The notes under the pieces: model-generated
What the model was told of the DNA's origin: nothing
The model's input: the letters and a program-made list of their open reading frames with translations, nothing else
Databases searched by the model: none
Made by a program: the position numbers and the translations under genes
Shown here: piece after piece, positions 3,094 to 17,179 of the stretch
How the letters are laid out: each line of letters opens with the position of its first letter
Position numbering within the stretch: position 1 is the stretch's first letter
Assembly (NCBI GenBank): GCA_902801515.1
Contig: CADCII010000008.1
Location: 37,792 to 101,791, forward strand
DNA length: 64,000 nt
DNA from: an uncultured Lachnospiraceae bacterium
GTDB lineage: Bacteria > Bacillota > Clostridia > Lachnospirales > Lachnospiraceae
Direction: 5' to 3'

Positions 3094-3099
3094 CAGCGA

Positions 3100-3390
3100 T
3101 GGCTGTGAACGTGTGTAAGTAGTCGGAAGAAAACCTTAGCAGAGAGCTGTCCCGAGGCTGTGAGGACGGCAGAAGATCTTCAGATGAATTTCAGCACCGG
3201 AGCCTTTCGTGAAAACACCTGGAATACGGTGTCCGCCAGACAGGGCGGATGTCGTCGTTGATGATTAAGCGGATGCAGACTGCCGGCATACTGGCAGGCC
3301 GAGTGCAAGTCAACATGGCTTGAAATTGGGTGGTACCGCGGATTTGTAGAAACAGACCCGTCCCATGATATGTGGGATGGGTCTTATTTT
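3100..3390 (+). promoter_or_regulatory. T-box leader, probably phenylalanine specific
   Basis: The hallmark T-box bulge sequence AATTGGGTGGTACCGCGG lies at 3324-3341 and is followed by a strong terminator hairpin at 3354-3380 (AGACCCGTCCCA pairing with TGGGATGGGTCT) ending in TTATTTTA. Upstream is a long stem I region with an AGTAG motif near 3118. A TTC at 3190-3192, in the context GAATTTCAGC on the 3' side of stem I, is the candidate specifier codon, which fits the downstream pheS-pheT. Uncharged tRNA-Phe would stabilise the antiterminator and allow read-through. The leader class is certain from the sequence; the specifier position is inferred. Confidence 0.92.
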
Positions 3391-6975: not shown

Positions 6976-7186
6976 GTCTTAACAAGATAACATTACCTGG
7001 GGTGCTCGACAGTTCTGTTTATTTTTGAACCTACATCGACTTGAACGGGTTTCCTATATCTCTGTGAACAATGTCAGGCCGTCCTCGAACGGAAGACAGC
7101 GGCGCAGTTGCGGTTACCCACCTGGCTTTTAGCTAGGAGTCAAAAGGCGGAGCACCGGCACTCTGGGCTGTGTATAGCAATTCCAG
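6976..7186 (+). ncRNA. ssrS: Probable 6S RNA
   Basis: A 330-bp gene-free interval contains a promoter, about 210 nt of sequence with no credible reading frame and a strong terminator. The segment CCTGGGGTGCTCG near 6995 resembles the conserved 5' closing stem of 6S RNA, and GGTGCTC pairs perfectly with GAGCACC near 7150. CCGTCCTCGAACGG in the middle resembles the conserved CCGUCC block, and CCTGGCTTTTAGCTAGG forms a local hairpin. 6S RNA sequesters the housekeeping RNA polymerase holoenzyme in stationary phase. No tmRNA tag, RNase P or SRP consensus was seen. Class assignment is from memory of the family; a covariance-model search would settle it. Confidence 0.6.
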
Positions 7187-12522: not shown

Positions 12523-15054
12523 TTAACGGTCGGTGAATACGGCTCTGGCAGCCTCTACTGTTTCCCTTGCGTCTTTCGCGTAGAAGTCGGCACCGATCTG
12601 GGCGGCATATTCTTTCGTCACAACAGCGCCTCCGACAACTACCTTGCAGGGATGTCCTGCTTCACGAAGGACTTTTATGGTCTTTTCCATGGAAGGAAGA
12701 GTGGTTGTCATAAGAGCGGACAGGCCGATCAGTTTCACATTATGTTCCTGTGCTGTCTTCAGCACCTTATCCGGCGGGACATCCCTTCCCAGGTCAATCA
12801 CGGTATATCCGTAATTCTCCAGCACAACTTTCACTATATTCTTTCCGATATCATGAATATCGCCTTCGACGGTAGCAAGGATGATCGTTCCTTTTGATAC
12901 GCTTACGCCGTCTGCTTTCGCGATCCGGTTTTTGATCAGATCAAATCCTGCGGAGGCTGCATTTGCAGCGTTTATAAGCTGAGGCAGGAAAATAAACTGT
13001 TTTTCGTATCTCTCACCGACTTTGTCAAGTGCCGGGATCAGATCCTGTTCGATGATATCCATTGCGCTTTTACACTCTATAAGGATCTGTGTCTGCCTGC
13101 GGACCTCATCAGGAAGGCCGCGTATTACTGCATTCTGAATCGCAGAGTCTTCCTGTCTTTTGTCAGAATCGGACTCCGGAGCGTTTGGTGAAGAAGCACC
13201 TGACGCAGAACCTGCACCCGGATTGTCTGACGAACCTGTTCCTGAAGATGCCTGTGAGACACCTGCCTGGACGGGAGTCTCTTTCGGCCTGTCTGCAAAT
13301 CTGGCGATATAGGCGCTGCAGGACGGATCCTGGCAGGAGAGGGCACGGTAGGACGCAATGGAATCCATGATCTCAAGCTGGTTGGGATTCACGATCGGAA
13401 GATCCAGTCCGCAGTACATTGCCTGCGTCAGGAAACTTACCGTCGCCATCTTTCTCATCGGAAGACCAAAGGAAATATTGCTGACTCCAAGCGTACAGTG
13501 TACCTTGAGGTTCCGGCTGACATATTCTACAGCGCGCAGTGTCTCCATTGCCTGATCCTGCTGCGCTGAGACAGTCAGGGCAAGGCAGTCAATGATGACA
13601 TCTTCTCTGGGTATACCATACTCATCTGTCATTTTCAGGATCATTTTCGCGTTTTCGATCCGTTCCTGCGCGTTCTTCGGCATACCGGACTTCTTCAGTG
13701 CCAGTCCGATCACACATGCTCCATACTTTTTGACGATTGGAAGGATCTGCCTGCATTTCTCCTCATCAGCGCTCACTGAATTGACGATAGCTCTTCCGTT
13801 CACTGCGCGAAGTCCCGCCTCAATGGCGGCAGGAGTGGAAGAGTCGATCTGAAGCGGAAGATCGGTCACACTCTGAACCGCGCGCACGACTTCTGTCATG
13901 AGGGAAGGTTCATCTGCTCCCGGAAGGCCTACATTGATATCGAGGATGTCGGCTCCGGCCTCAGCCTGGTCGATGGCACATTTCATGATGTAATTCATGT
14001 CATGCTCGCGCAGAGCCTGCTGAAAACGCTTCTTTCCAGTCGGATTGATCCGCTCGCCTATGACGCGGACAAAGCCGTCAAGATCAGTAACCCTGCCGGC
14101 AGAGCAGACACCGTTGCGAAGGCTTGATTCCGTTGAGTTATCAGAAACACCTGAAAATGAATCAGTATTTCCTGACTCTATGACAGACAGATCTGCTGCA
14201 GACATGGCTTCGCCAAGAGCCTGGATGAAGGAAGGCTGGGTACCGCAGCATCCGCCCATGATATAAACTCCCATCTCAGGATAAACCGCCATCTGCCGGG
14301 CAAAATTCTGAGGCGTCATCGCATAGGCGCCGGTCCTGGGATCCGGCAGACCGGCATTGGGCTTGACAATGACGGGAAGCGCAGTCCTTTCACGGATCGA
14401 CCGGACCATGGGAACCAGATCCACCGGTCCGAGTGAACAGTTGACGCCCACAGCGTCTACACCCAGAGCATCCAGAGTCAATGCCATTGCAGCCGGATCG
14501 GTTCCTGCGAACGTGCGTCCGGTTTTTTCAAAAGTCATTGTCACCCATACGGGAAGAGAAGAGTTCTCTTTTGCCGCCAGCACAGCGGCTCTGACTTCGG
14601 CCAGATCGGTCATCGTCTCAAAAATGACCAGATCAGCTCCTGCTTTTTCCCCGGCTGTGACAATCTGCCTGAAGCAGTCATATGCATCGTCAAATGACAG
14701 CGTTCCCAGCGGTTCCATCAGTTCTCCGATGGGTCCGACATCAAGGGCGACCCGTATTTTCTTCATGCCGGATACACTGTCTGCCGCAGCTTTCGCAGTT
14801 TTTATGTTGGCTGTGATCACCTCAGAGACATCATACCCTGAACCCTCATATTTATGAGAGTTGACGCCAAAGGTATTGGCATAGATTACATCGCTTCCTG
14901 CGTTGATGTAGCGTAGGTGGATATCCCTGACCACTTCCGGATGCTGCATGCCGAATACTTCAGGCTTTTCGCCCATTTTCAGACCTGAGCGCTGAAGCAT
15001 CGTGCCCATGGCACCGTCAAGATATATGATCCTTTTATCTGCACTAGTCATCAT
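12523..15054 (-). CDS. metH: Cobalamin-dependent methionine synthase without activation domain
   Basis: The 843-residue protein has the homocysteine-binding barrel (about 1-280, zinc ligands Cys206 in GVNCSLGP and Cys269-Cys270 in MGGCCGT), the methyltetrahydrofolate-binding barrel (about 325-575, starting GERINPTGKKRF) and the cobalamin cap and Rossmann domains (about 650-843, with GDIHDIGKNIV, whose His binds the cobalt). The C-terminal SAM-dependent reactivation domain of E. coli MetH (about 1230 residues in total) is absent. An unusual Ser/Gly/Pro-rich linker of about 40 residues sits near 597-640, before the B12 part; another Ser-rich linker is near 285-315. The start overlaps the stop of the activation-domain gene by 4 nt. 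Confidence 0.95.
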   Translation of the reverse strand: MMTSADKRIIYLDGAMGTMLQRSGLKMGEKPEVFGMQHPEVVRDIHLRYINAGSDVIYANTFGVNSHKYEGSGYDVSEVITANIKTAKAAADSVSGMKKIRVALDVGPIGELMEPLGTLSFDDAYDCFRQIVTAGEKAGADLVIFETMTDLAEVRAAVLAAKENSSLPVWVTMTFEKTGRTFAGTDPAAMALTLDALGVDAVGVNCSLGPVDLVPMVRSIRERTALPVIVKPNAGLPDPRTGAYAMTPQNFARQMAVYPEMGVYIMGGCCGTQPSFIQALGEAMSAADLSVIESGNTDSFSGVSDNSTESSLRNGVCSAGRVTDLDGFVRVIGERINPTGKKRFQQALREHDMNYIMKCAIDQAEAGADILDINVGLPGADEPSLMTEVVRAVQSVTDLPLQIDSSTPAAIEAGLRAVNGRAIVNSVSADEEKCRQILPIVKKYGACVIGLALKKSGMPKNAQERIENAKMILKMTDEYGIPREDVIIDCLALTVSAQQDQAMETLRAVEYVSRNLKVHCTLGVSNISFGLPMRKMATVSFLTQAMYCGLDLPIVNPNQLEIMDSIASYRALSCQDPSCSAYIARFADRPKETPVQAGVSQASSGTGSSDNPGAGSASGASSPNAPESDSDKRQEDSAIQNAVIRGLPDEVRRQTQILIECKSAMDIIEQDLIPALDKVGERYEKQFIFLPQLINAANAASAGFDLIKNRIAKADGVSVSKGTIILATVEGDIHDIGKNIVKVVLENYGYTVIDLGRDVPPDKVLKTAQEHNVKLIGLSALMTTTLPSMEKTIKVLREAGHPCKVVVGGAVVTKEYAAQIGADFYAKDARETVEAARAVFTDR

Positions 15055-15800
15055 TCATAACACCTCAGATTGTGAGACCGGTAAGAACACCTGGATTTCA
15101 GCGGACACATTCCGCAGCCGCCGAGTACTTTTTCTCTGACATCGCTGCAGATTCCCATGACCGCAGTGACGGATTTCCTGGGAACCATCAGCTGCGATGG
15201 GGTCAGAGTGATTCCGGCTGCTCTCGATGCGTTCAGAAGTTCAAGAACAGGACGCTGATGGGAGAGCGCGAAATCTCCGTACCCGGGTGAGAAGCGGTTC
15301 GTAAGATACTTATCCTCAGACTTAAGCTCTGCAGAGAGTTTTCTCTCAAAATCATCCGCTGCAGCTTCCACTGCGGCTGACGCGCAGATATCAAGCACAA
15401 GCGCATCCGACATATCCGTGACTTCCTGCTTCATCAGAACCCTCTCAAGTTCCGCGCCAAGGGTCAGAGCCATGAACACTGCTTCACTGCACCCGTCAAG
15501 CAGTCTCGCGATGTCCTTTCCATGAAGAACTATCGATACACTCTTGTAAGAGCGGCTGTCAGATACGTTCCCTGCTGCAGGGCTGTATCCAGCATCTAGA
15601 ACGATTGCAGAGAGCGGCAGGATCCTGTATACGCAGCGTATGCGCGCAGTCTCCAGTACAGTCTGTTCACAGCGGCTGATCTGTTCATCAAGGCGCAGGT
15701 CATTTCCCATTTCTTCATGCATCAGGGGAGAGCCGCTCTGAAGGCCGAGATACCGGTATATCTCATCTCTGTTCAGTTGTGTGATCTCTGGATTTATCAT
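15051..15800 (-). CDS. Methionine synthase activation-domain protein (stand-alone)
   Basis: The protein has 249 residues from the ATG at 15800; longer in-frame starts upstream lack family similarity. The [20 protein letters not shown] block corresponds to the RxxPGY region of the MetH activation domain, which binds SAM and allows reductive methylation of oxidised cobalamin. A C-terminal cysteine cluster ([10 protein letters not shown], then a later Cys) might bind a metal or Fe-S cluster. This stand-alone form is known in Thermotogae and Clostridia (recalled). It overlaps metH by 4 nt, so both parts of the split enzyme are made together. Confidence 0.85.
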
Positions 15801-15869: not shown

Positions 15870-15898
15870 TTGACATACAGCCGATTTCGTTTTAAAGT
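15870..15898 (+). promoter_or_regulatory. Candidate promoter of the asd leader
   Basis: TTGACA (15870-15875), 17 bp, TAAAGT (15893-15898). The predicted start near 15905 places the whole folded region 15922-16127 in the 5' untranslated leader of asd. The -35 is consensus; the -10 is weak. Confidence 0.5.
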
Positions 15899-15921
15899 TT
15901 TCAAGATATTGTATGATGTAA

Positions 15922-16127
15922 GGGTCAAAAGCCCTAAAGCTGAGGCAAGCTTGCTTGCCGGAGGCAGAAGGGATGTTGACCCGCCGGACACAGAGCACGC
16001 AGTAATTTGCTTCAGCAAATTACGAAAGTGCGGAGTGTCCTTGGAGCGCGGGAGTTGCGAAGTAACGAAGCGATCCATACATCATAGTTGTGGGCAAAAG
16101 GTACTTTTGACCACAACATCATTGTGG
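15922..16127 (+). promoter_or_regulatory. Structured leader or palindromic intergenic element upstream of asd
   Basis: Three hairpins follow each other. (1) 15922-15982: GGGTCAA pairs with TTGACCC, enclosing CCCT with AGGG and GGCAAGC with GCTTGCC. (2) 15986-16040: GGACAC with GTGTCC, enclosing GCAC with GTGC and GTAATTTGC with GCAAATTAC closed by a TTCA loop. (3) 16087-16117: GTTGTGG with CCACAAC, enclosing CAAAAG with CTTTTG. The CCACAA arm of hairpin 3 can instead pair with TTGTGG at 16122-16127, giving two mutually exclusive folds about 10 nt before the GGAGGAG ribosome binding site. It does not match lysine or SAM riboswitch consensus as far as can be judged by eye. It may be a cis-regulatory RNA or a mobile palindromic repeat. 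Confidence 0.6.
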
Positions 16128-16151
16128 TTTGTCTATGGAGGAGTATTAAAT

Positions 16152-17179
16152 ATGGAAAAATTAAAAGTAGGCATCCTTGGGGCAACCGGTATGGTCGGGC
16201 AGAGATTTGTCACTTTGCTCTCCGATCATCCTTATTTTCAGATAGTGGTTCTTGCAGCCAGCGAGAGATCAAAGGGCAAGACATATGAAGAAGCAGTCGG
16301 CGGCAGATGGAAGATGGATGCTGCCATGCCGGAACTTGTAAAGAATATGGTTCTTTACAATGTAAATGAAATCGAGGAAGTTTCGTCAAAGGTCGATATG
16401 GTCTTCTCCGCTGTCGATATGACCAAGGATGAGATCAGAAGGATCGCTGGACGCCGGATGTCCCGATGGTCATCCCGGAGATCAACCTGGATCATTTCCA
16501 TGTGATCGAAGACCAGAAGAAGAGACTTGGCACAAAGAGAGGTTTCATCGCTGTCAAGCCGAACTGCTCGATCCAGTCCTACACACCGGCACTTGCTGCA
16601 TGGAAAGAGTTTGAGCCGTATGAGGTAGTCGCGACGACTTACCAGGCGATCTCAGGCGCAGGCAAGACCTTCAAAGACTGGCCGGAGATGAACGGCAATA
16701 TTATCCCGTACATCGGCGGTGAGGAAGAGAAGAGCGAGAAGGAGCCGCTGCGTGTGTTCGGCCATGTCGAGAATGGGGAGATCGTCAGTGCCACAGAGCC
16801 GGTCATCACCTGCCAGTGTGTCCGTGTGCCTGTCCTGAATGGCCATACCGTTGCAGTGTTCGTCAAATTCCGCAAGAAGGTGACAAAAGAGCAGCTGATC
16901 GAGAAGCTTGTGAACTTCAGCGGTTATCCGCAGGAGCATAATCTTCCAAGCGCTCCGAAGCCATTTATCCAGTATCTGGAAGAGGACGACCGTCCGCAGG
17001 TTACTCAGGATGTTGATTTCCAGGGCGGCATGGGCGTATCGATCGGAAGACTCCGTGAAGACACGGTCTACGACTGGAAGTTCATCGGCCTTTCCCACAA
17101 CACGCTGAGGGGAGCTGCGGGAGGCGCTGTGCTGTGTGCGGAAACTCTGGTATCTCTGGGGTATATCACAGCAAAATAA
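16152..17179 (+). pseudogene. asd: Aspartate-semialdehyde dehydrogenase, frameshifted by an internal deletion
   Basis: The gene starts at the ATG at 16152 after GGAGGAG. The N-terminal frame encodes the NADP-binding [14 protein letters not shown] loop and runs to about residue 98 (DEIRRI, ending near 16446). From 16448 the homologous sequence continues in another frame with [12 protein letters not shown], through the catalytic VKPNCSIQ cysteine to a normal C-terminus at 17179. Between the two, the family normally has about 19 residues including the NNSAHR stretch; an estimated 55 bp (3n+1) appear to be missing. Asd makes aspartate semialdehyde for lysine, diaminopimelate, threonine and methionine, so a true null would be costly. 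Either a second copy exists or this is an assembly or sequencing error. The structured leader is directly upstream. Confidence 0.9.

Follow-up and report, generated by a model that had tools for sequence, protein, structure and literature searches.

Prokaryotic MITEs are short, are bounded by terminal inverted repeats and target duplications, lack a transposase, and occur in many copies (PMC10969869); the text of that review contains none of the words IS1182, Clostridi-, Lachnospir-, and Rfam. The pneumococcal BOX repeats, the nearest analogue that we found, are small, dispersed, and folded, and they are proposed to be mobilized by an IS through similar ends. They are co-transcribed with operons, and in one case a BOX repeat lies between two T-box leaders (PMC3049150). 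A further described system is classified as an RNA. Clostridiales-1 (Rfam RF01699) carries the Rfam type "Gene; sRNA" and is tabulated by Weinberg et al. (2010, PMC2864571) as likely to be an RNA, with neither a cis-regulatory nor a switch role; its entry there does not describe it as mobile. Among the papers listed in our literature searches, no title describes Clostridiales-1 as transposon cargo, which is no proof that the association is unpublished. A text match in PMC4081043 was due to chance ("orf01699").

We analyzed a stretch of 64,000 nucleotides from an uncultured Lachnospiraceae bacterium (hereafter the window), in which the gene asd is preceded by an elaborately folded leader. This leader very probably contains a 210-bp MITE, that is, a non-autonomous IS1182-type transposon with a Clostridiales-1 core, inserted in the asd 5′ leader (Table 1). 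We arrived at this assignment from five observations taken together: the ends of the element, its target duplication, its dispersed copies, an empty site in a relative, and the same ends around transposase genes elsewhere. The core matches the RF01699 model over its full length and well above the curated gathering score (90.8 vs. 48 bits). The window unit is longer than the family, consisting of the model plus terminal repeats, a 3′ hairpin, and target duplications. It differs from described prokaryotic MITEs in having a strongly covarying core that travels with several end classes. BOX repeats differ in host and size and have a modular boxA-boxB-boxC structure; by the title of Table 1 in PMC3049150 they are in excess between convergent genes, whereas three of 86 loci lay in convergent gaps here. 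We liken the two by description and claim no membership.

Table 1. Features of the asd leader and of the element inserted in it (positions in the window)
Feature	Position	Strand	Basis
asd promoter, TTGACA - 17 nt - TAAAGT, predating the insertion	15870-15898	+	Sequence; similar words in element-free relatives
Target duplication, left copy, TGT	15910-15912	.	Duplication analysis
Complete mobile element (MITE), 210 bp	15913-16122	+	Terminal repeats, duplication; 210 bp also in the G002 and G008 copies
5′ terminal inverted repeat, ATGATGTAAGGGTCAAAAG	15913-15931	+	Repeat comparison
Clostridiales-1 core (Rfam RF01699), spanning the whole 166-position model (1-166) at 90.8 bits	15914-16084	+	cmscan
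Hairpin 1 of core	15922-15982	+	Best fold
Hairpin 2 of core	15986-16040	+	Best fold
Hairpin 3 of core, new relative to the earlier note	16042-16077	+	Best fold
P1 closing stem, 3′ arm (partner 15913-15920)	16078-16085	+	Best fold
3′ hairpin, terminal repeat plus its inverted copy; beyond the Rfam model	16087-16117	+	Fold, Rfam search
3′ terminal inverted repeat, minus-strand reading, ATGATGTTGTGGTCAAAAG	16104-16122	-	Repeat comparison
Target duplication, right copy, TGT; T16122 + TGT + GG = TTGTGG	16123-16125	.	Duplication analysis
asd ribosome binding site, GGAGGAG; start codon at 16152	16137-16143	+	Sequence

The element starts with ATGATGTAAGGGTCAAAAG and ends with CTTTTGACCACAACATCAT, and its 19-nt imperfect terminal inverted repeats are 84% complementary. 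An earlier note on this DNA had offered a mobile palindromic repeat as its second reading, pointing to recurring words that resemble GTCAAAAG. These words are real and belong to the terminal inverted repeat; allowing up to three mismatches, ATGATGTNRKGGTCAAAAG matches twice in the window against 0.10 expected. We compared 64 unique full elements bounded by these ends, taken from the loci examined and with the core present or absent; an exact 3-bp duplication was found in 44 and a 3- or 4-bp duplication in 51 (mismatched-flank control 4.9%); the remaining 13 had neither. The two bases preceding the 44 exact duplications were A (43) and T (44), and the two following were A (38) and T (38), giving a target of the form AT-NNN-AT. 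At the window, AT precedes the duplicated TGT but GG rather than AT follows it. Duplications were also present in 14 of 23 short two-ended forms (39–148 bp), and in 7/8 and 3/3 elements of two more end classes that enclose a Clostridiales-1 core.

Copies are widely dispersed. The core was detected (E ≤ 0.001) in 22 of 41 genomes, the window's own included, and in 20 of the 41 above the Rfam cut-off; it was seen in five of 23 genera, with up to 40 matches per genome (G021) and 30 in G020, and in none of 14 named control genomes. The end motif had 76 matches in G002, and a reversed control pattern had zero across the 41 genomes. Core and end counts are lower bounds, since some contigs stop inside an element (e.g., G003:C4). 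In the window's own genome the core matches three times, twice above the cut-off, and the end motif occurs without mismatch on contigs C7, C8, C9, and C18 and with one mismatch on C69. These end-motif copies precede histidyl-tRNA-synthetase-like, asd, nameless (one), AraC-like, and amidohydrolase-like genes, names that are our reading of the sequence and not database matches. Clostridiales-1 copies adjoin varied genes with no single gene or pathway in common. The second reading of the earlier note is borne out by the dispersed copies, the end motif, the target duplications, and the transposase-bearing relatives described below.

A search for one gene family beside the ends gave no candidate: the largest of 25 listed neighbor clusters comprised generic ABC-transporter proteins (eight loci), several clusters were duplicate loci, and none of the 25 was a transposase cluster. 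One further core copy in the window's own genome (L002 1501–1672, contig C1, 63 bits) has quite different ends, TTATAATATCGCCC / GGGCGATATTATAA, and precedes a gene read as an ABC-transporter ATPase. Loci L182 and L203 hold 148-bp elements with the same ends as the window element around a different two-hairpin passenger, which shows that the cargo of these ends varies. An exact inward-facing end pair at L203 belongs to separate elements, with a leuA-like gene between them.

Leveraging a collection of species genomes, we searched for exact matches to one end and obtained at least 119 stretches; the end matches listed were mostly from Lachnospiraceae or unclassified Clostridia. At locus L236 (labeled Sarcina sp. 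DSM 11001), both ends flank a DDE transposase of 546 amino acids, with a GATT duplication. The best of six matching models was IS1182 (NCBIfam NF033551), but the score of 131 bits does not reach its cut-off of 270, for which reason we use the label IS1182-like; Pfam domains were PF13751, PF01609, and PF05598. Inner repeats suggested that L236 was an IS nested in a MITE, but same-ended elements of other genomes decided against this. Relatives of the L236 transposase (E ≤ 1e-60) were found at 11 loci in 10 of 299 family genomes. These ends lie on both sides of the gene at five of the 11 loci, and a sixth locus, L267, has variant ends. Considering the five loci together with L236, four out of six had a 3- or 4-bp duplication. 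At L143, L165, and L191, an end is followed by the start of the same transposase protein. The IS1182-like elements (L236, L260–L263, L270) resemble the window element in their terminal repeats and 3- to 4-bp duplications, and L236 also has the same difference between AAG and TTG ends; they differ in being ∼1.85–2.0 kb long with a transposase gene, whereas the window element lacks a transposase gene. The draft of the window's own genome (94 contigs) holds no transposase of this group at E ≤ 0.001. We infer that the window copy was moved by an IS1182-like transposase of this kind.

The hairpins of the leader are real. The best fold of the element has −95.6 kcal/mol, compared to −57.4 ± 4.25 kcal/mol for 200 shuffled sequences, none of which was as good (z = −9.0), and the antisense strand also folds stably (z = −6.9). 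All three hairpins claimed in the earlier note appear in the best fold with identical coordinates, joined by a fourth hairpin and by the closing stem P1. The first reading of that note was a switch with two mutually exclusive terminal hairpins; for asd this would be a riboswitch or attenuator that senses lysine, threonine, or methionine. A stable fold upstream of a biosynthetic gene would suit such a switch, and the competing pairing can indeed be written, between CCACAA (16111–16116) and TTGTGG (16122–16127). A second TTGTGG, at 16088, lies within the 5′ arm of the 3′ hairpin itself. When the element was folded with its flanks (15900–16160), however, the competing pairing was absent from both the best and the centroid structures, in which the 3′ hairpin retains its 13 pairs. 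The supposed switch strand is composed of the last base of the element (T16122), the target duplication TGT, and two host bases (GG). Moreover, RF01699, an existing family of the sort that the earlier note had named as an argument against a switch, is the only Rfam family within 15880–16150 at E-values up to 1, with no riboswitch family among the matches.

Comparison with relatives points the same way. We found an asd match in 18 of the 19 genomes of the genus, and the element is absent from the 98–120 bases upstream of the 17 other asd genes. A cmsearch of these 17 whole asd loci gave no core above 14.8 bits; the single weak match, in G007 (L126 ∼1269–1358, 14.8 bits, E = 0.02), is on the opposite strand ∼140–230 bases upstream of asd and could be what remains of a decayed element inserted elsewhere. 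An empty site is preserved in G018, which keeps the window flank and promoter and in which TTTTCAAGATATTGT runs directly into CTTTACTTAAAGGAG. The asd leaders of G011 and G009 keep TTTTCAAGATATTGT uninterrupted, and that of G006 keeps most of it. Similar promoter words, of the form TTGACA-17-TAnnnT, lie upstream of asd in several element-free relatives. The conserved association with asd or lysine genes that a switch would predict was not found among relatives, in which copies are scattered. The varied neighbors and the membership in a non-riboswitch family speak against a riboswitch of asd, as do the element-free orthologs, on which we reject it; we regard such a switch as extremely improbable. 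At the asd locus the element is an ordinary mobile repeat.

The following course of events would account for the locus. An IS1182-like transposase with the same ends would recognize the 19-nt terminal repeats and insert the element at an AT-NNN-AT target, of which 3 bp would be duplicated. The insertion would have fallen 14 bases past the −10 box of the existing asd promoter and upstream of the ribosome binding site. A transcript from this promoter would then pass through the element, forming three hairpins under P1 and the 3′ terminal hairpin, with the ribosome binding site staying outside the folds. It is probable that asd is transcribed through the element, and any effect on asd is likely to be modest at most (leader length, mRNA stability).

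The asd gene of the window (16152–17179), the only asd match in its genome, is read in two frames and has 55 bases fewer near 16444 than in G018; the frame split may be genuine or may stem from an assembly fault. Upstream of the element, on the minus strand, a methionine synthase gene is apparently split (12523–15800): 12523–15054 matches profile positions 2–851 of 1182 (489 bits, under the equivalog cut-off), and the adjoining 15051–15800 weakly matches positions 1114–1171 of a methionine synthase profile. The window also contains a 6S RNA at 6991–7173 (RF00013, 62 bits vs. a cut-off of 46.4) and a T-box-like leader at 3096–3368 (G000:C8:40887–41159) that scores 75.4 bits, under the Rfam cut-off of 93.

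The transposon explanation alone leaves the conservation of the core fold unexplained. We built a core model from 15 divergent copies and obtained 109 matches over the 100 loci searched, with cultured carriers such as Muricomes intestini and a strain labeled Lactobacillus rogosae among the sources. The covariation score was 0.534, compared to 0.158 for shuffled alignments and no more than 0.094 when pairing partners were slid, all 58 pairs had changed on both sides, and 85.5% of cells pair, in an alignment that was fitted to the model and hence favors structure. Out of 122 exact end sites in named genomes, the core is adjacent in 60, with the expected strand in 58 of the 60, and Clostridiales-1 is also found with quite different ends. 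Since only part of the end sites have the core, and the core occurs with differing ends, the ends alone do not explain its conservation.

We were curious to see how the copies are oriented relative to genes. In a first set, of relatives (105 copies, reduced to 86 loci by excluding those close to an edge and second copies within a locus), 51 were sense and 12 antisense between tandem genes (p = 7e-7), 17 were in divergent and three in convergent gaps, one was in an ORF, and two were unassignable. A cruder gene caller gave 39 sense versus 14 antisense (99 of the 105 copies). In a second set, drawn from the 60 end sites with a core (14 of them too near an edge), there were 11 sense and 11 antisense copies, 17 divergent and five convergent, compared to 25 sense and five antisense for elements with the same ends without a core. 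Split by end class, the sense-to-antisense counts were 11:2 and 40:10 in the first set and 9:10 and 2:1 in the second. The two sets overlap in part, as L188, L214, L227, L229, and L241 are apparently contigs of G008, G002, or G003. We therefore do not take sense orientation as a rule, the bias of the first set not being repeated in the second.

These data bear on what keeps the core. With a probability that we put at not quite even, the core of the mobile element may act as RNA where it lies in a leader or separates the genes of an operon, perhaps in mRNA protection or processing, by analogy with BOX repeats, which influence their neighbors (PMC3049150). The covariation with changes on both sides of every pair, the sense excess of the first set, and the scarcity of convergent gaps are consistent with such a role; the even split of the core-bearing second set, set against the strong sense excess of its core-less counterparts, speaks against it, as does the small number of G-U pairs. 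Among 81 nonredundant core copies we counted 135 G-U and 126 A-C appositions (3.3% G-U), compared to 43 and 14 in stem I of T-boxes from the same taxonomic order (9.4%; 22 nonredundant of 29 rows) and 24 and 11 in SAM riboswitches (5.5%; 14 nonredundant of 20 rows, from 20 of 22 matches). The core differs from T-box stem I in both G-U share (Fisher p = 2e-8) and ratio (p = 0.001). A control with 23 tRNAs was uninformative because ARAGORN accepts standard pairs only.

Such a low G-U share, well below that of the T-box, suggests that the core of the mobile element could instead be kept at the DNA level, as a single-stranded fold, a cruciform, or palindrome arms that template switching at replication keeps matched, its RNA being incidental. 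We consider this possible but unlikely. The absence of a sense bias in the second set agrees with it, as do copies in G004 and G005 whose flanks lengthen the stem through locus-specific inverted repeats. On the other hand, G-U exceeds A-C in core pairs that are at least 80% standard (74 vs. 38; the ratio against T-box then has p = 0.10), and changes between close copies involve G-U more often than A-C (145 vs. 70). The internal loops retain conserved unpaired bases, and the first set has its sense bias. We do not treat the G-U and A-C counts as proof of DNA-level folding; the core is G-U-poor, yet the counts are not decisive and do not demonstrate a DNA-only fold.

The flanks just mentioned (L271–L274, L280, L112, and L113, in G004 and G005) directly adjoin the core and are mutual inverted repeats of 5–6 bp that are specific to each locus, such as CTGAAT/ATTCAG and GCCGTA/TACGGC, and lack a duplication. 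Either the copies inserted into palindromes or the stem has grown outward. Among the 81 copies that do not belong to the first end class, 10 had at least five inverted-repeat flank bases, compared to 0.5% in controls. At L108, L109, L110, L113, and L114, Clostridiales-1 cores stand two or three in a row and touch, overlap by a few bases, or lie ∼10 bases apart. In two cases a Clostridiales-1 copy lies immediately downstream of a T-box leader and on its strand (L341 1305–1753 in G004, and G005:C20:17600–18045). From the presence of at least three end classes with 3- to 4-bp duplications, together with the inverted-flank group of G004 and G005 without duplication, one could suppose that the folded core is itself the persisting unit, a mobile module that several transposons with unrelated ends have acquired. 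We think this rather doubtful; were it so, the fold may be kept by selection on the module itself.

A separate small RNA with its own promoter would agree with the Rfam type and with the published rating as a probable RNA. Promoter-like scores of at least 9 out of 12 precede 14.7% of 95 copies, compared to a shuffled mean of 5.1% and maximum of 11.6%. However, TATAAT-like words show no strand bias (36 vs. 43 of the 95) and fit the AT-NNN-AT target, and dispersed copies flanked by duplications require no promoter of their own, making this reading improbable. We also considered insertion aimed at promoters and rejected it, the TATAAT-like words being equally common on the opposite strand and reflecting AT-NNN-AT; a weak promoter-like excess persists.

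We conclude that the asd leader very probably owes its elaborate fold to a mobile element. Clostridiales-1, a candidate structured RNA listed in Rfam without a function, emerges as cargo of transposable elements, which explains its scattered gene contexts. The result is a warning that Clostridiales-1 is not to be taken for a regulator of asd or of any other neighbor. The ends, target, and partner transposase provide handles for asking why the Clostridiales-1 fold is conserved.
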